Positions 55,590 through 64,000 of a stretch of DNA of 64,000 bases are shown piece after piece. The stretch's first letter is position 1; each line of letters starts with the position of its first letter. The stretch comes from Prevotella communis. GTDB taxonomy: Bacteria; Bacteroidota; Bacteroidia; Bacteroidales; Bacteroidaceae. The translations under genes were made by a program, and so were the position numbers. Below the pieces are notes generated by a model that saw only the letters and a list, made by a program, of their open reading frames with translations, was not told the origin of the DNA and did not search any database. The stretch is from positions 124,001 through 188,000 of the forward strand of contig NZ_CP091792.1 of assembly GCF_022024115.1 (NCBI RefSeq). The letters are read 5' to 3'.

Positions 55590-55650
55590 GCGCAAAGCGT
55601 TAAAGATTTTAAACGCTTTGCGCTACTTTGTTTTTAATTCGTATCTTTGC
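55590..55650 (+). terminator. terminator of the FAS1/Sus train overlapping the next promoter
   Basis: The perfect 12-bp stem GCGCAAAGCGTT / AACGCTTTGCGC (55590-55601, 55612-55623) is followed by TACTTTGTTTTT. A -7 box TATCTTTGC lies at 55642-55650, and TTTG at 55617-55620, inside the 3' arm of the stem, sits 21 bp upstream as the likely -33 element of the lipoprotein gene at 55675. Confidence 0.8.
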
Positions 55651-55674
55651 ACTATTAACATTCTATTGACGCGT

Positions 55675-57972
55675 ATGAAAATCTGTAACTGGCTCGTTTC
55701 ATTGCTCCTTGTTGGAGCACTGATGTCGTGCTCTTCTGAAACTCAAGTGGATTTGCTTTCCTTGTCGCTCGACAACTACAAGCCCGTCGACGAGTTTGTA
55801 GATGCCTATGAGGCTATCAGCAAGCAGGAGGGACTGCAGTCGGGTAGGGACTACGACCTGGAGAAGACGGTGCGGGTGCTCAATGCGCTCGAACTGGCAC
55901 AGGTGCGCTCCGAGAGTTTCGATGAGTTCCTCGACTATATGGCGCGTCAGGATTATACGGGCGTGGCGCCCGATGTGCTGGAGGCCAAGCGCAAACTGTT
56001 CCCCGTCCTGGAATATACGTACCGGTTGCGCGAGCAGGACGAGCAGCTGTCGGATGCGTGGATGCTGATGCGTGGTGCCGCCAGGGGCGGGGAGACGCTC
56101 GTCCGTAATACGTCTGCCAGCACGCTCCTCCGTGCCGCCCTGGGCGATATGTTCGCCGTCCTGGGCATCGTCAATGGCGAGGATGCCGAGCGTTCTACCA
56201 ACGAGGCTTTCGCCCAGTACGAAAAGGATAAGAAACTGAAGTCCCAGCTCCGTGACGACCTCCAGAAGCTCCGCGCCTCCTACCGCCAGTACCTCGAGGA
56301 CTATACCCCTATCTACAAGAAATATATGCAGGAGTACGATGCCCTCTGCATCGAGAAGGACAAGGCCTACCTCGCCCTCTATGCCGGTCGCACCGAGGAG
56401 GCCCTCTCTCACACCCAATCCATCCTCCAGAAATACCCCGACAACCCCGAGGCCATGCTCCTCCACGCCATGGCGCTGATCATCCAGTCTAAAGGGTTCA
56501 AGGTTCAAGGTTCAAGGTTCAAGGTTCAAGATTCACGGTTAATGGTTAATGATTCAGCCATCAGCCATCAGACATCAGACATCTTCCCTGACTCCGTGAA
56601 TCCTGACTCTTCCCTCTTCCCTCTTCCTTCTGACATCTTCCGTGATTCCGTGATTCCTCAGCAATTGTCAATTGTCAATTATCAATTATCAATTATCAAT
56701 TATCAATTATCAATTGCTTCGCAGACGCTCGCGCGCTACGCGACTCGCTACCCCTCCCGCACGGCTCCTGCCTTGGTCCTCGAGGGGCTCTTGCAACAGC
56801 AGCTGGGCAATGAGCAGGCGGCGATGAGCAGGTTCCACCAGGCCAGTGTGGAGTATCCGCGGCAGGCGGCACAGCTCACGGATATGCTCGACAGCTACAA
56901 TAGGCGTAACTACCTCACGCGGACGCCCGAGGGACAGTACCTGCGGCGTCTCTATGCCTCTACCATGGAGGGCTATGGCCTCTTCTCGCCTAATCTCCTG
57001 AAGGCGAAATATTATGCCGACCAGGGAAAGATGGACCAGAGCCGTGAGGAGATCTATAACCATTTCTTCCGTCGTGGCAACCAGGGTATCTACGACGAAC
57101 TGCTCTCTGATATGCAGTTCTGTGAGGAGCATCTCTACGGGGCGTTCAAGGGGTTGCTCCTGGAGTCGTCGTATATCGATGTGAGCATCGAACCGGAGTC
57201 GGAGTGGCTCTTCTGGGATAGTGATGATGTGATGCGGGTGAGGATCAACAACCGGTCCGACCTCGACCTGGAGAATGTGCGGGTCTTCCTCTGCATCCAC
57301 TATACGGATATGTATAAGGATGAGTACGATGTCATCAAGGTGCCGCATACGGCGAATATCATCGCAAAGCATACCACGGCCGACCTCGACACCGTCACCC
57401 TGCGCTATCCGGGAAAGACGTATAAGGATATCACGCGTATCCGTGCTATCGCTATGACCGACGACCGCATCTGTTGGGTGGATGATGTCAACTATAAGCA
57501 GTCGCATGCGCTGAGCTTCCTGCGGGGCGGACAGCGCGATGCCAGCGCTCTGCAGGCGCAGGCCCGTGAGGAGTACCTGCGTACCTACTCTCTGGAGCCG
57601 CAGAAGTTGCGTCGCACCATCCAGGAGGGCATCACCATCCTGCCTCCCGAGGAGGATCCCACGGCCGACCGCTCGTGGTGGGACACCTTCCTCTCCTGGT
57701 TCTCCAGCCCCGACAACGACTTGAAGCTGGAGCTCCCCCGTGTGCTCGCCATGACCGACCCCGTCTTCTCCCTCCACCCGTTGGATAGCGATGATGCCAT
57801 CACGCCCGAGGACAACTACCTCTCTGGCACCACTATCCACCTCCGCTTCCCCTATGTCCCCGCCTACGGCGACCATCTCCCCCTGTATATCTACACGGAG
57901 TCCGCCACCTTCCTCGCCGACATCCTCTACCGCGGCAAGGACTCCCAGGTCCTCTCAGTCACCATCCTCTAA
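55675..57972 (+). CDS. TPR-like lipoprotein of unknown function with in-frame repeat insertion
   Basis: A 765-residue lipoprotein with lipobox LMSC (Cys19). Helical N-terminal part; TPR-like helices are seen at about 235-270 (AYLALYAGRTEEALSHTQSILQKYPDNPEAMLLHAMALI) and again from about 348 (ALVLEGLLQQQLGNEQAAMSRFHQASVEYP). Residues about 272-347 between them come from a mosaic of short repeats and look foreign. The C-terminal half is beta-rich and unrecognised. G/C-ending codons prevail, unlike the T-rich Sus genes before it. The start ATG 55675 lies 25 bp after the -7 box. It stands alone between terminator/promoter and a repeat-rich gap. Confidence 0.8.
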   Translation: MKICNWLVSLLLVGALMSCSSETQVDLLSLSLDNYKPVDEFVDAYEAISKQEGLQSGRDYDLEKTVRVLNALELAQVRSESFDEFLDYMARQDYTGVAPDVLEAKRKLFPVLEYTYRLREQDEQLSDAWMLMRGAARGGETLVRNTSASTLLRAALGDMFAVLGIVNGEDAERSTNEAFAQYEKDKKLKSQLRDDLQKLRASYRQYLEDYTPIYKKYMQEYDALCIEKDKAYLALYAGRTEEALSHTQSILQKYPDNPEAMLLHAMALIIQSKGFKVQGSRFKVQDSRLMVNDSAISHQTSDIFPDSVNPDSSLFPLPSDIFRDSVIPQQLSIVNYQLSIINYQLSIASQTLARYATRYPSRTAPALVLEGLLQQQLGNEQAAMSRFHQASVEYPRQAAQLTDMLDSYNRRNYLTRTPEGQYLRRLYASTMEGYGLFSPNLLKAKYYADQGKMDQSREEIYNHFFRRGNQGIYDELLSDMQFCEEHLYGAFKGLLLESSYIDVSIEPESEWLFWDSDDVMRVRINNRSDLDLENVRVFLCIHYTDMYKDEYDVIKVPHTANIIAKHTTADLDTVTLRYPGKTYKDITRIRAIAMTDDRICWVDDVNYKQSHALSFLRGGQRDASALQAQAREEYLRTYSLEPQKLRRTIQEGITILPPEEDPTADRSWWDTFLSWFSSPDNDLKLELPRVLAMTDPVFSLHPLDSDDAITPEDNYLSGTTIHLRFPYVPAYGDHLPLYIYTESATFLADILYRGKDSQVLSVTIL
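56492..56716. repeat. mosaic of four short-repeat families inside the TPR-like lipoprotein gene
   Basis: In order: GGTTCAA words (56495-56530); CATCAGACAT words (56556-56585); CCCTCTTCC / GATTCCGTGATTCC words (56586-56657); CAATTGTCAATTATCAATT words (56661-56716). The frame stays open across all of them and TPR-like sequence resumes afterwards. Confidence 0.88.
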
Positions 57973-58668
57973 TCTCACACAGAAATCACGGAAGGTTTAG
58001 CTCGACGGCCCGAAGGGGAAAGTCAAATCACAGAAATGGGGAATCGTAGACGATTCCGGGGATACGGGTCGCCTAAAGGCTCAAAATTATAAGAAAATTA
58101 AAATAAAAAATTATAAGGACCTAAAGGTCCAGAAATAAAGTCACACAGAAATCACTGAAATCACGGAAAGTAGAATCGCCAGCGATTCTTTATTTGAGGT
58201 CGCTTCGCTCAAAATTATAAGAAAATTAAAATAAAAAAATTATAAGGACCTAAAGGTCCGGAAATGGAGGAGTGCCTCTAACGAGGCAGAAATCCAACAA
58301 AATCGGAACAAATCGAGCAAATTTTTATTTTGAACATTAATTATCATGTAATTTAACCATTAATTATCTTTAATTGCTTCGCAGCATATTTACGACCAAC
58401 TCAATTGCTTTGAAAAAAAATAATTAATGAAAAATTAATGTTCCAATTATATGGCAATTATATGTTGAAAAAGAAAAATCATTGATGTTAGGGGTTTGGG
58501 CACCTTGGGCAAGGTATATATGTTTTTTCTTGTTTTTTCAAAAATTATTTGTTCGATTTTGAATAGATTTGTTCGATTTCTGGCCGATAGGCCACTCCTT
58601 TATTTCTAGACCTTTAGGTCTTTATAATTTTAGAAATTAATTTTTTTATAATTTTGAGCCGATAGGCG
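57973..58668. repeat. non-coding hairpin mosaic between converging genes
   Basis: No gene is seen. The stretch holds small hairpins with mostly 4-nt loops: GAATCG-TAGA-CGATTC (58041-58056), GCC-TAAA-GGC (58071-58080), GGACC-TAAA-GGTCC (58117-58130 and 58246-58259), AGAATCG-CCAG-CGATTCT (58172-58189), GCCTC-TAAC-GAGGC (58274-58287), TGGCC-GATA-GGCCA (58581-58594), AGACC-TTTA-GGTCT (58608-58621) and GCC-GATA-GGC (58658-58667). TCACACAGAAATCAC words occur at 57975 and 58141. ACAAAATCG...AACAAATCGAGCAAAT (58297-58321) faces its inverted counterpart at 58547-58580. A 42-bp stretch (58555-58596) is identical to DNA at the GxxExxY element. The AT-rich centre contains a dispersed repeat (58421-58535). 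Confidence 0.85.
58421..58535. repeat. AT-rich dispersed repeat, copy 1
   Basis: Begins TAATTAATGAAAAATTAATG, continues with TTCCAATTATATGG, then CATTGATGTTAGGGG, and ends near TTTTTTCTTGTTTTTTC. Copy 2 is at 63795-63893 in the same orientation. Confidence 0.75.
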
Positions 58669-58673
58669 ACCAT

Positions 58674-58699
58674 GAAAAAAGCCCGGCGTTGGCCGGGCT
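58674..58699 (-). terminator. terminator of the arabinofuranosidase gene
   Basis: On the minus strand AGCCCGGC-CAAC-GCCGGGCT is followed by TTTTTTC, 30 bp after the stop codon. Confidence 0.9.
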
Positions 58700-58728
58700 G
58701 TATAGAGAGATTTTGTGGGGGAGACGGG

Positions 58729-60756
58729 TTAGAGGGTGTACTCCAGCATGATGAAGGTGTAGGGAGCCACGTCGAGGGTGCACTTCTTCTGAGCCTTGAC
58801 GGTCTCCTTCTGAGGCGCGATGGGCTGCTTGTCGTAGTTGTTCTCATCATTGGCAGCACCAGTGAGGACAGTCTTGATGGCGTTCTTCTTAATACCGAAA
58901 CGACTCAGGTTGATGTTAGCCTTCTTCACCTCGTCAGAGGCGTTACAGATCTTCACGTAGAGCTTGCGCGTCTTCACATTGAGGATGACAGACTGACCAT
59001 AGTGCACATTCTCCTGAGGCTGGATGACATCAGCGGCATCGCCCTCGAACTTCACACAGTCGCCATAGTAATACTGACCGCTTGACTGACCGAAGAGCTG
59101 CTGCACATAATAGCTGCAGGTGAGGTAAGCACGCTCGTTATCGAAATAGATCATGTCGGGGTTCCAGTTGGTATTGTCCTTACGGGCGAAGAGAGGAGCA
59201 TAAGAGGTCATAGACACGATATCACCATTACGCTCTACATGGAGCAGGTACAGACCCTCGGCCAGGGCATCGATCAGTTTCTTGTCCTTGGCAGCATACT
59301 CACCCAGATAGACCTTCGTCTTGCGGTCGCGGGGGTAGTTGTCGTACTGGCGCTTATTGAGGAAATAGCTGTTGGGCTCGTAGTAGTGCTCGTCGATGAT
59401 AGGCATGCCCAGCTCGTTGGCCAGCTTCCAGCCATTCTCGAGGTCGGCATTACCGGGGTGAGAGCCAGGACCGGCAGTACCCACGATGATAATCTCGGGG
59501 TGGGCCTTGGTGACACGCTCGTAGATATACTTGAAACGCTCTGCAAACTCAGGAGAGATCTTCTCCTCATTGCCCAGACCCAGATATTTCAGGTTGAAGG
59601 GTTTGGGATGACCGGCATCAGCACGCATCTTTGCCCATTTATTCGTGGCGGGATCGCCATTAGCCCACTCGATGAGGTCGATAGCCTCAGCCACCCACTC
59701 GTCCATCTCGCTCATAGGAACGGCATCCTGTGCCTGTGTGGGGTACATGTTCCATCCGCCATTGGCACCCTGACAGCTGACACCGCAAGGGAGGATAGGC
59801 AGGGGCTCCATGCCGAGGTCCTCACAGAACTGGAAATACTCGAAATAGCCAAGACCCATGCTCTGGTGATAGCCCCAGGTATTCTTCAGACCCTTACGCT
59901 GCTCCTTAGGACCGATGGTGGTCTTCCAGCGATAGGTATCCCAGAAACCGTCGCCACCACCATGAACGACACAGCCGCCAGGGAAGCGCATGAACTTTGG
60001 ATGCAGGTCAGCCAGTGCCTGGGCGAGGTCTTTTCTGAGGCCATGACCCTTATAGGTATCCTCGGGCATCAGTGACACCTGGTCGATATCGAGGTCGCCC
60101 AGTGTGAGCACCAGAATCTGCAGAGAAGCATTCTTACAGTCGGCCTCGGGCACGAGGACAGCCTCGCACTTCTGCCATGACTTAGCGTCGATCTCGAGGT
60201 GTGCCTCAGCCAGGAGCTTGGGGTCTTTGCCCCAGCCCTGAGGCTCGACCAATGCGATACGGATCTGGAAGGATTGAGGTTGGAGGTTTGAGGTTTGAGG
60301 TTTACGGAAGAAGGCAGAGAAGTCATATTTCTCGCCGGCCTTCACGCTGATACCGTTGAAACCGGTGTTTTCGATACCGAAGCCTTTCCAGCCCTTATAG
60401 TCATAGTACTCCTTGACACGCTCTGTGTGCAGACGCATATACGTGGGGTTGTTCGGGTGGATAGGGTTATCCATACGTACCTGGAGGGTACCCAGTGAGT
60501 GGCCCGGACGAATCTGTTTCCATGCGGTGCCTGCGCCCCAGCCGTCACGCTCTCCGGGGTTGAACTCGAAAGAGCCGTTCTGGAGGAGTTCGGCATAGAG
60601 TCCGCCATCGGCAGCGCTACTGATATCCTCGAAGAAGATACCGATCAATTCGTCACTGATTGCCTTTCCGCCAGCAGGGGCTTTCATTGTTTTCTGGGCT
60701 TGCATACCCAGTGTTGCTGCCATCATTGCAGCGCCAAGAAAAAATACTTTCTTCAT
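58729..60756 (-). CDS. alpha-L-arabinofuranosidase, GH51 family
   Basis: A 675-residue secreted enzyme that removes terminal L-arabinofuranose from arabinan, arabinoxylan or related chains. The signal peptide ends in MQAQ (residue 21). After an N-terminal beta-domain with a carbohydrate-binding-like insert (about 60-235), the GH51 barrel begins around RFPGGCVVHG. The acid/base is the first Glu of GLGNEE and the nucleophile the Glu of YLGEYAA, both in the expected order. The C-terminal beta-domain ends LDVAPYTFIMLEYTL. An in-frame repeat patch (60271-60304) encodes RKPQTSNLQPQSF (about 151-163) in the insert domain. It is a single gene with its own promoter (60790) and terminator. Confidence 0.95.
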   Translation of the reverse strand: MKKVFFLGAAMMAATLGMQAQKTMKAPAGGKAISDELIGIFFEDISSAADGGLYAELLQNGSFEFNPGERDGWGAGTAWKQIRPGHSLGTLQVRMDNPIHPNNPTYMRLHTERVKEYYDYKGWKGFGIENTGFNGISVKAGEKYDFSAFFRKPQTSNLQPQSFQIRIALVEPQGWGKDPKLLAEAHLEIDAKSWQKCEAVLVPEADCKNASLQILVLTLGDLDIDQVSLMPEDTYKGHGLRKDLAQALADLHPKFMRFPGGCVVHGGGDGFWDTYRWKTTIGPKEQRKGLKNTWGYHQSMGLGYFEYFQFCEDLGMEPLPILPCGVSCQGANGGWNMYPTQAQDAVPMSEMDEWVAEAIDLIEWANGDPATNKWAKMRADAGHPKPFNLKYLGLGNEEKISPEFAERFKYIYERVTKAHPEIIIVGTAGPGSHPGNADLENGWKLANELGMPIIDEHYYEPNSYFLNKRQYDNYPRDRKTKVYLGEYAAKDKKLIDALAEGLYLLHVERNGDIVSMTSYAPLFARKDNTNWNPDMIYFDNERAYLTCSYYVQQLFGQSSGQYYYGDCVKFEGDAADVIQPQENVHYGQSVILNVKTRKLYVKICNASDEVKKANINLSRFGIKKNAIKTVLTGAANDENNYDKQPIAPQKETVKAQKKCTLDVAPYTFIMLEYTL

Positions 60757-60789
60757 TATTTGTAATCGTTAAAGGTTTTTATGTTTGGT

Positions 60790-60798
60790 GCAAAGGTA
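60790..60798 (-). promoter_or_regulatory. -7 box of the arabinofuranosidase gene
   Basis: The minus-strand TACCTTTGC lies 33 bp upstream of ATG 60756. Confidence 0.65.
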
Positions 60799-60870
60799 AT
60801 AATTACACTTGAAAACACAAAGAAAATTATGTTTTATTCACACAGAGGGAGAGGCATGAAGATGCCAATT

Positions 60871-61905
60871 GGCTCGCGCTAAAGCGTGAGCAGAGGAATG
60901 TCACACAGAAAACACGGAAATCACAGAAAGGAGAATCGTAGACGATTCTTTATTGGGGTGGCCTAAAGGCCACTTAAATAGGAGTCGCCTTACGGCGAGA
61001 AATCTAACAAAATCGAAACAAATCGAACAAATAATATAATATCAAGATTTTGTTAGATTTTGAATAGATTTGTTCGATTTCTGGCCGATAGGCCACTTAA
61101 TAATAAGAATCGCTGGCGATTCTGGATTGTGTTATGCCATCATTACATCAACTTGATTCTGTCTATGGTTCCAAGCAATGGGTCACGATGGTACCATTCA
61201 CTATAAAGGCCATCAGGACTAAAATTCATGAGCATTCCATAAGGTAGATGGGTAAGATTCATATAATTCCATAACTGACGGCGATGAGGAGAATCTATAT
61301 GACTTATGGCCTTAAGTTCAACTATGATCTTTTCATTGATAACAAGATCTAATCGATATGACTGATCCAATCGTACATCATCCCAATAAATTGGAAGAAA
61401 TTTCTGGCGTTCTACAGTATACCCTTTCTGTTCAAGAAGGTATTTTAAGGCTGCTTCATAAGCCGACTCCAATAAACCACCATGATATTTTCGGTGAACA
61501 CGCATTGCTTCGCCTGTGATATCCTTGAAAAACTCGTATCTCTTATTATATTCTTGTATTAAATCCATAATCATTAGAACTCTTCTTCATTAATTAACGA
61601 CAATATCTTCATTTTCTTATAATCTGAATCATCTTTTTCTTGGAGTAGCCTAAAGGCCACTAAAAAAAGAGTCACCTTACGGTGAGTAATCGAGTTCTAC
61701 TCGCTTCGCTCGTCGAAGAAATCGAACAAATCGAAACATATCGAGCAAATAATATAATATCAAGATTTTGTTAGATTTTGAATAGATTTGTTCGATTTCT
61801 GGCCGATAGGCCACTCAAAATAATAAAGAATCGCTGGCGATTCTCCTTTCCGTGCTTTCCGTGCTTTCTGTGTGACCCCCTCCCGCTCACGCTTTAGCGC
61901 GAGCC
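60871..61905. mobile_element. candidate 1035-bp element: GxxExxY gene between long terminal inverted repeats
   Basis: The outer ends, 21 bp each (60871-60891 and 61885-61905; GGCTCGCG...GTGAGC and its complement), are exact inverted repeats. With no gap the match continues to 79 bp (60871-60949 against 61905-61827): a 9-nt variable spacer, TCACACAGAAA-nCACGGAAA words, and hairpin AGAATCG-n4-CGATTCT. Inside lie two direct copies of a hairpin block (60958-61123 and 61645-61844), sharing an exact 70-bp stretch (61028-61097 and 61746-61815). The only gene is the GxxExxY gene. No target-site duplication is seen next to the ends. Related ends occur at 58141-58189 and 63717-63793. Mobility is inferred from structure only. 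Confidence 0.6.
61143..61574 (-). CDS. GxxExxY-family protein (PD-(D/E)XK nuclease fold)
   Basis: A 143-residue protein with the name-giving G-x-x-E-x-x-Y at 33-39 (GLLESAY) and the nuclease-type core D...ELK in RLDLVINEKIIVELKAI (74-90). The end (LPYGMLMNF, about 109-117) is also conserved in the family. These proteins are widespread in Bacteroidetes and other phyla and have no proven function, but the fold suggests DNA cleavage or nicking. The start is ATG 61574 (61568 is possible), after AAGAAGAG. No TAnnTTTG promoter is seen. It is flanked on both sides by direct copies of palindrome-rich DNA and by outer inverted repeats. Confidence 0.9.
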   Translation of the reverse strand: MIMDLIQEYNKRYEFFKDITGEAMRVHRKYHGGLLESAYEAALKYLLEQKGYTVERQKFLPIYWDDVRLDQSYRLDLVINEKIIVELKAISHIDSPHRRQLWNYMNLTHLPYGMLMNFSPDGLYSEWYHRDPLLGTIDRIKLM

Positions 61906-62064
61906 AAAATCCGTGCCATCCGTGCCATCTGTGCGACCAAAAATTTTTTCCGTGTGCGCACCCATTTCACCGACTCATTCCCCCTTTTCATCCGTTAAAT
62001 CAGTTAAATCCGTGGTCAAACCAATAAAAACTTGCAATTTCTTTCCGGTTTCAGTTTAATTTCG
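61575..62064. other. non-coding stretch: right arm of the element, then short direct repeats
   Basis: 61645-61905 is the right part of the GxxExxY element. It includes an extra CGAG-TTCTA-CTCG hairpin near 61691 absent from the left block. 61911-62020 holds 10-bp-period words such as CCGTGCCATCCGTGCCATC and CCGTTAAATCAGTTAAATCC. No gene is seen. Confidence 0.7.
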
Positions 62065-62073
62065 TACCTTTGC
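62065..62073 (+). promoter_or_regulatory. -7 box of the NusG/UpxY-like gene
   Basis: TACCTTTGC, about 210 bp before the ATG at 62286. The region upstream is C/T-rich and a -33 TTG at the usual distance is not clear. Confidence 0.6.
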
Positions 62074-62285
62074 ACCGATATACACATCTCTGCTTACCAA
62101 AATGAACAGTTTTGTGTAGTATCAAGACAGGTGACTCTGCCGCCGTTCTGAAAGTACCCCCTGCGGGGACTGACAAGGGAAAACGCAAAGGCATGACGAA
62201 CCAACGGGAAGGGTGCCCCGAGCACCCATAAAAGTAGAAATTGTCCAAACAGCCCACTGTGCGGACCAAGCGGAACTCGTCTCTA
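62074..62285 (+). promoter_or_regulatory. long structured 5' leader of the NusG/UpxY-like gene
   Basis: About 210 nt of G/C-rich leader in an AT-rich neighbourhood. Visible pairings: CCCC-CTGC-GGGG (62157-62168), GGGTGC-CCCGA-GCACCC (62211-62227), and a possible closing helix CCGTT/AACGG (62143-62147 with 62203-62207). Two tiny frames are present: ATG 62102 to TAG 62119 (5 residues) and ATG 62193 to TAA 62231 (12 residues), the latter spanning the second hairpin. No known riboswitch class was recognised. UpxY-type proteins in Bacteroides act on long leaders of their own capsule operons, which makes this a candidate target. Confidence 0.5.
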
Positions 62286-63569
62286 ATGAATCGTAGCAAT
62301 ATAACAGGAAAAGACAATAAGGAAAAACGATGGTGCATCCTCCGTCATCCGGATGCAGACCTGATCGGAGAGATTCTCAGTGGCAGGCGAAAGGTCTTCG
62401 ATGCCTCTGGGGAAGTCTCGTATTCATATAATTTCTTCATCCCCTTCGAGGACCTGAAACTCCGACAGCGCCAGGTACAAAACTCTCCTGATGACGACTA
62501 TAAAGACTATGATGCCATGCTCGATGAGCGTGCGCTGCGCAGCGACCTGCACCATTTCATCTTTATCTGTGCGTCGAAGGATGATATCGTGAAGCATATC
62601 CTGAACAGCCCGTGGAACAAAGCGCTCACCCATCGTCTCTATGCCTATCGTGATGAGCATGGCGACCCGGTGGAGGTCAGCCATGCCGAGGTGCAGCGTT
62701 TCATGACCGTCATCAAACGTTACGATTTCCAGATTCTTAATGGCGAACCCTCCGACGAAGTCCGTGAGGGCGACCGTGTCACCGTCATCAGTGGTCCTAT
62801 GGCAGGCAGCGATGGTATCATCCAGGAGATCCGTGAGCGTGAGGGCCAGATCCTCCTCACCATCACCTTCGCGATGTTCCAGAACAAGATGCATGTTGCC
62901 GTCCCCGGCATCCGTATCTCTGATGTCCGCTTGACGTCTGCAGAGGCCCAGCGGCTCATCCAGGACCCCGTCATCGGTCATTTCGAGGACCAGCTCATCG
63001 AGCTCCTCTGCCATCTGCATGGCAAGAAAGGCTCCCACGAGCTCAACAAGGAAGACCAGCGCCAGCTCCGCTTCCTCTACCAGTACACCACCATCCAGTT
63101 CGACGACCCCGCCAACCGCACCAAGTTCGCCGCCCTGATGCTCATCTGCGCCTACCTCATGAACGACAAAGACGAGGTAGCCCGCCGCCAGCAGGAGGTG
63201 GAACAGCTCCTGATGTCTGAGGTAGAAAAGATGTCTGATGTCGGAGGTTTGAAGTCTGATGTAGATCCTGAACTCCGTGATTCCGTGACTCCGGATCCCG
63301 TAATTCTGGGCTCCGTCCTCCGTGAATCCGTAGTCCGTGATTCCGAATCCCGTGACTCCGTGAATCCGGGCTCCGCCTTCCGTGATTCCGTGACTCCGGT
63401 TCCCGTGATTCCAAACAATGACATCTCATGTTATTTAACGATGTCATTGTTCATCGTCACTCACAACCCTGAGTACCGCTGTCAGGTGAAGGCCTGGCGT
63501 CAGTCGCACCCCGACTGTCCCCTTGTCATCCGCCGCTTCCTCTCCATCGCCAAGCAAATCCGGTGTTGA
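62286..63569 (+). CDS. NusG-like / UpxY-like transcription antitermination protein with extended C-terminus
   Basis: A 427-residue protein. The NGN-type domain (about 14-150) starts RWCILRHPDADLIGEIL. A KOW-type domain follows (about 160-220: EVREGDRVTVISGPMAGSDGIIQEI to GIRISDVRL), then a helical region (about 225-310). UpxY/LoaP proteins (about 170-200 residues) act on one operon, usually capsule genes. This one is twice as long. Residues about 310-375 come from a short repeat (DSVTPDP/RDSV words) and the last 40 (NPEYRCQVKAWRQSHPDCPLVIRRF) look like true protein again. An 11-bp inverted repeat AACAATGACAT (63414-63424 and 63441-63451) lies in frame. Start ATG 62286; a TTG at 62241 is an alternative. 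Target genes would lie beyond 64000. Confidence 0.8.
   Translation: MNRSNITGKDNKEKRWCILRHPDADLIGEILSGRRKVFDASGEVSYSYNFFIPFEDLKLRQRQVQNSPDDDYKDYDAMLDERALRSDLHHFIFICASKDDIVKHILNSPWNKALTHRLYAYRDEHGDPVEVSHAEVQRFMTVIKRYDFQILNGEPSDEVREGDRVTVISGPMAGSDGIIQEIREREGQILLTITFAMFQNKMHVAVPGIRISDVRLTSAEAQRLIQDPVIGHFEDQLIELLCHLHGKKGSHELNKEDQRQLRFLYQYTTIQFDDPANRTKFAALMLICAYLMNDKDEVARRQQEVEQLLMSEVEKMSDVGGLKSDVDPELRDSVTPDPVILGSVLRESVVRDSESRDSVNPGSAFRDSVTPVPVIPNNDISCYLTMSLFIVTHNPEYRCQVKAWRQSHPDCPLVIRRFLSIAKQIRC
63213..63412. repeat. short-period repeat mosaic inside the NusG-like gene
   Basis: GATGTCTGA words (63213-63262) are followed by GATTCCGTGACTCCG-type words with a ~10-nt period (63271-63412). The same word families occur in reverse strand sense or the same sense at 56556-56659 in the unrelated TPR-like lipoprotein gene. 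Confidence 0.88.
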
Positions 63570-64000
63570 CGGCATTCTCGACTTCACCTCTGAAAAACGT
63601 CCTCGCTTCTCTGCGGAATGTTTTGTCAGAGCCAAAGTCTCCGACGGAAAAACCGGTAATAAGAAAATTTGTTTCGATTTTGCTCGATTTCTCGCCCTTG
63701 GGCGACTCCTATTTCCAGAATCGTCTACGATTCTCCTTTCTGTGATTTCAGTGCTTTCTGTGTGCCCCCTCCCTCTCACGCTTTAGCGCGAGCTAATTAA
63801 TGATAAATTAATGTTCCAATTAATGGTAATTAATGTTCATCAAAAAGCTGTCGTTGATGTTAGGTTCAGGGAAGAAACTGTTTTTCCTGTTTTTGCCTCG
63901 GATGCTTTCTGCGGTTCGTTAAGCGAACCCATTGATAGCACGGTCTTTGTGCGAGAACGCGTTCTCAGGCACAAACGAGCGAGGTAGCAATGAGGCCATA
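63570..64000. other. non-coding right edge with element remnant and palindromes
   Basis: No gene is seen. 63667-63793 is a remnant of the element family: ATTTGTTTCGATTTTG, hairpin CGCC-CTTG-GGCG (about 63692), AGAATCG-TCTA-CGATTCT (63717-63734), TTTCTGTGATTTCAGTGC words and the outer end CTCACGCTTTAGCGCGAGC (63775-63793). Then comes AT-rich repeat copy 2 (63795-63893). Palindromes GGTTCG-TTAAG-CGAACC (63913-63929) and GAGAACGCGTTCTC (63953-63966) follow. Confidence 0.7.
63795..63893. repeat. AT-rich dispersed repeat, copy 2
   Basis: TAATTAATGATAAATTAATG, TTCCAATTAATGG, GTTGATGTTAGG and CTGTTTTTCCTGTTTTTGCC match copy 1 at 58421-58535 in order and spacing with scattered changes. In both places it borders DNA of the hairpin-element family. 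Confidence 0.75.

Follow-up and report, generated by a model that had tools for sequence, protein, structure and literature searches.

The window, by which we mean the whole 64,000-nucleotide (nt) stretch of Prevotella communis analysed here (contig NZ_CP091792.1, positions 124,001 to 188,000), contains a small gene of the GxxExxY family enclosed by inverted and direct repeats. We analysed this unit as a candidate selfish cassette and compared it with GxxExxY genes and their flanks in other genomes. Its parts and its gene-less relatives in the window are as follows.

61143..61574, minus strand: GxxExxY gene, 143 aa, with a predicted PD-(D/E)XK fold and GxxE, D, ExK and QxxxY motifs
60869..60954, plus strand: left outer inverted arm, with a 21-nt palindrome-like end, a CACACAG-type word array and a GAATCG-hairpin
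61822..61907, minus strand: right outer inverted arm, partner of 60869..60954
60976..61100: left gene-less core hairpin, consisting of a hairpin with a AAATCTAACAAAATCGAAACAAATCGAACAAAT word array, a short loop, an inverted array and a hairpin
61716..61818: right gene-less core hairpin, a direct repeat of the left core (95-97%, 70 nt exact)
57970..58671: composite element without a gene, whose array types and word arrays are those found around the window GxxExxY gene
63667..63798: gene-less remnant, with end and core arm as in the window GxxExxY unit

The initial annotation had described a gene between terminal inverted repeats of 79 bp, and its measurements were borne out. The outermost 21 nt (60871-60891) are the exact reverse complement of 61885-61905 (21/21), and the ungapped inverted match of 79 nt holds 66/79 identities (84%), the roughly five positions in six that had been claimed; the pair can be extended to 86 nt (60869-60954 / 61822-61907) at 85% identity. 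The longest exact direct repeat between the left and right sides of the gene is indeed 70 nt (61028-61097 and 61746-61815), and the gene-less relatives reported at 58.0-58.6 and 63.67-63.79 kb are real, as judged by a repeat comparison of the window. None of 300 dinucleotide shuffles exceeded a local inverted score of 14; the flanks themselves reach 58. The GxxExxY gene is the sole open reading frame (ORF) of at least 60 aa within the unit, and one of two GxxExxY genes in the genome (one contig, 3.57 Mb). With the 86-nt pair, the locus has the layout that marks an intervening sequence (IVS), an ORF flanked by inverted repeats that could pair as a stem; it lies between protein-coding ORFs and not inside 23S ribosomal RNA (rRNA), and no rRNA family was among the matches up to E 0.1 in 57900-64000. 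A known RNA was rejected as an explanation of the left core hairpin, its two microRNA matches (27.2 and 25.2 bits) falling below the gathering scores of 95 and 130.

The core hairpins on both sides of the gene are complete, gene-less and in direct orientation relative to each other, so the window copy is compound. The outer CACACAGAAAACACGG-type arrays have kin at four other, paralogous loci of the genome, all of them away from its two GxxExxY genes; the outer pair therefore looks like a separate nested array, not the ends of a single transposon. In the window copy, then, the cassette is nested together with two gene-less copies in direct repeat and with an outer array of a different type. The earlier view of the 79-bp ends as borders of a mobile unit or simple transposon found no support, outer-type arrays also occurring apart from GxxExxY genes. 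Four paralogous HU-like or small-protein loci (L071, L079, L080 and L081) have a CACACAGAAATCACGG-type array in common, and three of the four also contain a small palindromic segment, which the fourth lacks.

In RAYT/REP systems (repetitive extragenic palindromes, REP, and their associated tyrosine transposases, RAYT) and in systems of miniature inverted-repeat transposable elements (MITEs), an enzyme gene is flanked by palindromic repeats and gene-less copies are found elsewhere. The GxxExxY cassettes resemble them in these respects, but have another enzyme fold, arms that are not common to the copies, and periodic word arrays. The RAYT/REP comparison first drawn for the locus is therefore an analogy only, the sole ORF of at least 60 aa inside being a PD-(D/E)XK protein; membership, in the sense of an HUH (Y1) transposase beside REP palindromes, was rejected, with PDDEXK_3 the only match inside. 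We give very little credence to a RAYT/REP-like or simple transposon whose 79-bp terminal inverted repeats the protein would recognise as transposase and whose gene-less copies would be MITE-like. The inverted ends and nearby gene-less copies would fit it, as would an internally deleted copy with both arms (L351) at the junction that locus L172 occupies in another genome. However, the ends are not common to different loci, outer-type arrays occur away from the gene, the PD-(D/E)XK domain stands alone without a transposase-type domain, and no constant target duplication was recognised by eye.

The window protein matches TIGR04256 (GxxExxY) at 117.4 bits (cut-off 35) and PF13366 at 109.7 bits (cut-off 22), and residues E36, Y39, D76, E86, K88, Q100 and Y104 are invariant across 33 sequences. 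Its structure is predicted with a local distance difference test score (pLDDT) of 94, and the structures matched by the model are SSO0001, which we take to be Cas4, and restriction enzymes; with Foldseek, four SSO0001 chains were found at E <0.001, with a query template-modelling score of 0.43-0.52 and a root-mean-square deviation near 14. The GxxExxY protein is thus confidently modelled as a PD-(D/E)XK nuclease fold of the Cas4/RecB kind, and it is like Cas4/RecB-type and Hjc-type nucleases in predicted fold and in the E-D-ExK-QxxxY residues. A sequence search of the PDB gave four rows up to E 1, the best being Endonuclease I at a non-significant E of 0.18. No link of GxxExxY to CRISPR (clustered regularly interspaced short palindromic repeats) was seen, and no search aimed at CRISPR was made. 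PADLOC anti-phage defence models returned 0 families at E 0.01, and a defence or phage origin was rejected without a PADLOC or PHROG match. Genes of the family (PF13366) are present in 41/60 genus genomes and 151/296 phylum genomes.

Inverted arms around GxxExxY genes

We compared flanks in a genus set of 43 of 101 GxxExxY places, namely those on the stretches fetched (up to 20 kb) plus the window, with control ORFs predicted by a simple script, not a gene finder. Firstly, a blastn search of the 400-bp flanks (E 1e-4) detected inverted repeats at 23/43 GxxExxY genes against 8/522 other ORFs of the same stretches, and at 3/328 ORFs lying more than 2.5 kb from a GxxExxY gene. Secondly, a local inverted score of at least 15 in 200-bp flanks was reached by 30/43 GxxExxY genes and by 10/522 control ORFs. 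Thirdly, when arms of different loci were paired, 1.55% of 1806 mismatched pairs reached score 15, so the arms are locus-specific. The proposal that the same palindromes accompany GxxExxY genes beyond other genes thus held for the enrichment of inverted repeats and failed for their identity, the arms being specific to a locus or subfamily. The arms are arrays of words of about 9-10 nt, inverted across the gene, whose letters vary by locus (among the flanks read: CACGGATT, ACGGACT, CACGGTT, CACAGAG and GATTTGAA), and their best self-shift is 9 or 10 nt in 23/29 elements tested; when words were compared with spacers, the alignment itself favoured in-register pairing. Phylum-wide the signal is weaker: score 15 is reached by 14/29 loci, and by 5.2% of mismatched pairs (29 of 30 sampled loci, L129 being left out as having no ORF by the search pattern). 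Predicted folds of gene plus flanks contain at least 12 arm-arm pairs in 35/43 elements and in 66/152 controls, either strand alike; the window copy has one such pair in this test, in which the 120-nt flanks stop short of its outer arms.

The arms also accompany one protein subfamily. The window protein has 48 relatives, one at 38% and the rest at 62-84% identity, which occupy 39 neighbour pairs; because 14 of these pairs either overlap with another pair in one neighbour or are missing a neighbour, the actual number of sites is about 25 to 39. Close relatives numbered 48 of 53 loci in the first arm reading and 47 in the motif and own-arm tests. The subfamily arm motif occurs on both sides of 23/47 genes, against 0/39 other GxxExxY genes and 0/448 control ORFs; it was composed after viewing arms of the same loci, and the comparison rows omit the window, L053, L055 and L063. 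A copy's own two arms match with a median score of 18.5 versus 11.4, the own arm being the best partner in 7/47. Among 200 genus genomes (own excluded), remote gene-less core copies occur in 6/9 genomes with the cognate gene and in 21/190 without it, which lends support to the non-autonomous copies proposed in the initial annotation. In this count the 66% identity line for a cognate gene was set after seeing the matches; two genomes with 50-54% relatives, neither of which carries the repeat, were scored as without the gene; remoteness was judged by contig, and at most four first-look candidates were scored per genome, so repeats were possibly missed.

Empty and filled operon junctions

The names korA, korB, etfA, acyl-CoA dehydrogenase, ispD, pnuC-like, GDP-mannose, araA, araB, transporter and, above, HU are our presumed identifications by recognition of protein sequences, not database results. 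GxxExxY sites with a pair of neighbours number 86. The two neighbours agree in strand at 61 of them, and the gene is co-directional with both at 59/61, a count in which sites at common junctions are not independent. Three junctions were read across relatives, korA-korB and ispD being chosen for their several GxxExxY genes and etfA for the several cargo types known there. At korA-korB, 14 of 30 loci are empty, with gaps of 5-36 bp (ten of them 5-9 bp); the filled ones hold nine GxxExxY genes (456-709 bp, one frameshifted, and L207 assigned from two partial frames), two DUF559 genes and one four-helix-bundle gene, and there remain three short inserts, one of them a gene-less arm pair, and one unreadable locus (L218). 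Beyond these 30 loci, coordinates place a GxxExxY gene ahead of korB in genome G039; four-helix genes stand in that position in G006 and, carrying a stop, in G058. Between etfA and the acyl-CoA dehydrogenase gene (29/30 loci read) we found seven empty sites (2-5 bp), four spacers (19-63 bp), three four-helix, two DUF559 and one GxxExxY gene, two gene-less or decayed arm pairs, and ten other inserts reading as small ORFs, six of them below the length of the script's ORF test. At ispD (29/30 loci read), 21 sites are empty, 11 of them with overlapping stop and start, three hold GxxExxY genes and five hold gene-less inserts, some of which are word arrays. One ispD gene next to a GxxExxY cassette (L106, 5980-6717) has the same words in frame (GQTRTDTDNKES), and the ispD matches of many other genomes end at that in-frame word position.

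It is well supported by these sequence comparisons that the cassette is present or absent as a unit at the same junctions between species. Empty and filled versions of an orthologous site, as expected of a homing-type element, occur at korA-korB, etfA and ispD between species, not between strains. The idea that such pairs exist holds in relatives in this way; none could be demonstrated for the window's own locus, where the arabinofuranosidase gene is kept in at least nine relatives and the right-hand neighbour has no long match there. In 9/9 copies of the korAB set, the two arms of a copy resemble each other more closely than they do the arms of other copies on average (p 0.002).

The unbroken GxxExxY proteins of korAB group as a single clade (100/98). 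The pnuC-like site and one transporter site likewise have one clade each; clade support at ispD is 79/77. Proteins from the GDP-mannose junction are split between separate clades, and so are those from araA-araB, which implies at least two insertions at either junction. Presence on the korB tree is scattered like shuffled labels, with eight changes, four of them forced by well-supported branches. Homing would be expected to produce this pattern, a single lineage at one site whose presence is scattered; the pattern would also fit an old insertion that was lost many times, or interspecies exchange of the region. A mostly vertical history, in which each junction was rarely entered and often emptied, the arms are only an RNA stem (for RNase III or regulation) and the nuclease has a cellular role, is in our view unlikely, if still to be taken seriously. 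It would account for the single clades at korAB, the pnuC-like and one transporter site, the remnants and decayed copies at junctions, and the predicted arm-arm stems in 35/43, and it has a parallel in the rRNA IVS, reported to have a stem cut by RNase III (PMC4990558). Against it stand the ten of 14 empty korAB sites that are just 5-9 bp and scarless, the eight changes on the korB tree, the separate clades at GDP-mannose and araA-araB, the close relatives with the same arms at many junctions, and the recurrence of words along each arm.

The other cargo families have arms of their own. In four-helix-bundle genes (PF05635) of the genus, the inverted arms consist of GGAGTTA-type heptads (19/28 at score 15, mismatched 7.8%; 28 of 30 loci sampled). 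The arms of DUF559 genes (PF04480) are rich in C and include a short hairpin (14/25 at score 15, mismatched 16.8%; 25 of 30 loci, some rows in long open frames); 13 of the 14 armed genes score at least 25. We think that the high mismatched rates come from arm resemblance within each family. Some DUF559 domains lie within open frames of 300-1311 aa, as though fused to neighbours. All three cargo families are hosted both at korA-korB and at etfA-acyl-CoA dehydrogenase, which could mean that the arrays are independent repeats, driven by the host or by other elements, that gather at tolerant operon gaps, the ORFs being captured passengers. Gene-less arrays found alone, even within coding sequences, and the nested window copy would agree with this. 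We nevertheless judge it improbable, as the arm dialect differs from one cargo family to the next, the arms track protein subfamily, and inverted repeats flank only 3/328 ORFs more than 2.5 kb away.

Selfish cassettes in operon gaps as a possible class

On balance, and with modest assurance, we favour the reading that the window gene and its inner arms make up one instance of a selfish cassette, IVS-like or of a homing type, in a gap between co-directional genes. The comparison of sequences supports it through the tight, locus-specific inverted arms, the co-directional placement, and the empty, filled, arms-only and deleted versions that a junction shows from species to species. It does so too through arms that stay with a single protein subfamily at its many junctions, and through gene-less copies that go with the cognate gene. 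Such a cassette would be a single small ORF between two inverted arrays of 9-10-nt words, presumably carried in the host transcript. The nuclease may act on the arms, or on a hairpin, cruciform or junction that they form, and could thereby start cassette gain at cognate junctions, in a homing-like manner, and the spread of gene-less copies. In the transcript, paired arms would fold the ORF out of the operon messenger RNA, like the rRNA IVS stem, which would make the insertion tolerable. Hairpin-templated repair or slippage may keep the arms matched, so that each copy would drift to its own words.

Several points weigh against the selfish-cassette reading. Movement, cleavage and RNA processing are not among the observations, the part of the nuclease being what we infer. 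Four-helix-bundle cassettes at the same junctions contain no nuclease, and something else may therefore do the moving. Reading by eye brought out no constant target-site duplication at korA-korB, etfA or ispD. Arms at score 15 are missing from 13/43 genus loci, and at korAB the own arm is the single best partner in just 3/9 copies. Arms rise above background in 2/8 plasmid-borne GxxExxY genes, both from Bacteroidota; a Treponema plasmid hit has an 11-nt exact inverted pair at background score, and no arms were found at the other five. Of the eight rows, those from Gemmatirosa (3' end running into an early stop) and Persicobacter (guessed start) were not fair tests. The association of gene-less copies with the cognate gene, drawn with an identity line set after the fact, may reflect shared ancestry. 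The single clades at korAB, the pnuC-like and the transporter sites mean that much of the pattern may stem from old insertions with losses or from recombination between species, and the korB tree is weakly resolved, with the unread L218 labelled empty. Finally, the authors of the Coxiella IVS study suggested that the ORF of that element is not translated in vivo (PMC4990558).

The likeness to that element is otherwise close. The same paper describes the Coxiella rRNA IVS as a selfish element of 428 nt with an S23p ORF, terminal complementary sequences and heptameric repeats ahead of the ORF, and with excision by RNase III (PMC4990558). Like the cassettes, the 23S rRNA IVS has a single small ORF in terminal inverted repeats forming a stem, with short tandem repeats beside the ORF, and is called selfish; its protein family (PF05635) is one of the three cargo families at the junctions. 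Unlike it, the cassettes, known here from sequence, lie in protein-coding operons, carry nuclease cargo and have word arrays peculiar to each locus. Free-standing homing endonuclease genes are intergenic nuclease ORFs, patchy at an orthologous site with empty sites. The cassettes share the nuclease ORF, the intergenic position, the patchiness, the empty sites and, at some junctions, one protein clade per site, but they carry inverted word arrays and the same sites hold non-nuclease cargo; the likeness is one of sequence, not of cleavage. Heptameric repeats in inverted pairs are reported from Xanthomonas (PMC4692102), a DUF559 Vsr-like protein is required for the SOS response of a Caulobacter mutant (PMC12907096), and a Flavobacterium four-helix-bundle gene between guanylate kinase and mononucleotide adenylyltransferase genes is filed under phage sequences (PMC5524665). 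None of the open-access papers found by the searches was recognisable as a description of such cassettes, subscription papers and preprints being outside the search, and the name GxxExxY turned up in two papers, in one of them as a passing mention.

More tentatively, we consider it possible, if somewhat doubtful, that bacterial operon gaps host a superclass of minimal selfish cassettes, in which a GxxExxY, DUF559 Vsr-like or S23p/four-helix ORF sits in self-matched inverted word arrays. Such cassettes would home repeatedly to shared stop-start junctions, give off copies that lack the gene and be the source of many of the widespread, unexplained short word repeats in bacterial genomes; the rRNA IVS would be the one long-known case. 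They would be a little-noticed kind of element that may account for many odd short repeats in these genomes, and the rRNA IVS, long puzzling, would join a wider class. The common architecture and insertion sites give GxxExxY, DUF559 and four-helix genes a testable role as selfish cassettes, and pairs of empty and filled junctions make gain, loss and nuclease action directly testable.

Word repeats in neighbouring genes

Word arrays also occur in frame in genes around the window unit. At 60265-60320, a heptad word array lies within the arabinofuranosidase gene (residues KPQTSNLQPQSF), and in 7/7 relatives compared this protein is 5-6 residues shorter at the position of the array. The ORFs at 55618-57972 and 62241-63569 carry in-frame word repeats, SKGFKVQGSRFKVQ...NYQLSIINYQLSI and SRDSV-type; the SRDSV-type repeats lie at 63274-63436, and their host ORF has a sub-cut-off match to an UpxY antiterminator. 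Just past the window, four four-helix-bundle matches are grouped at 194.8-210.2 kb of the same genome.
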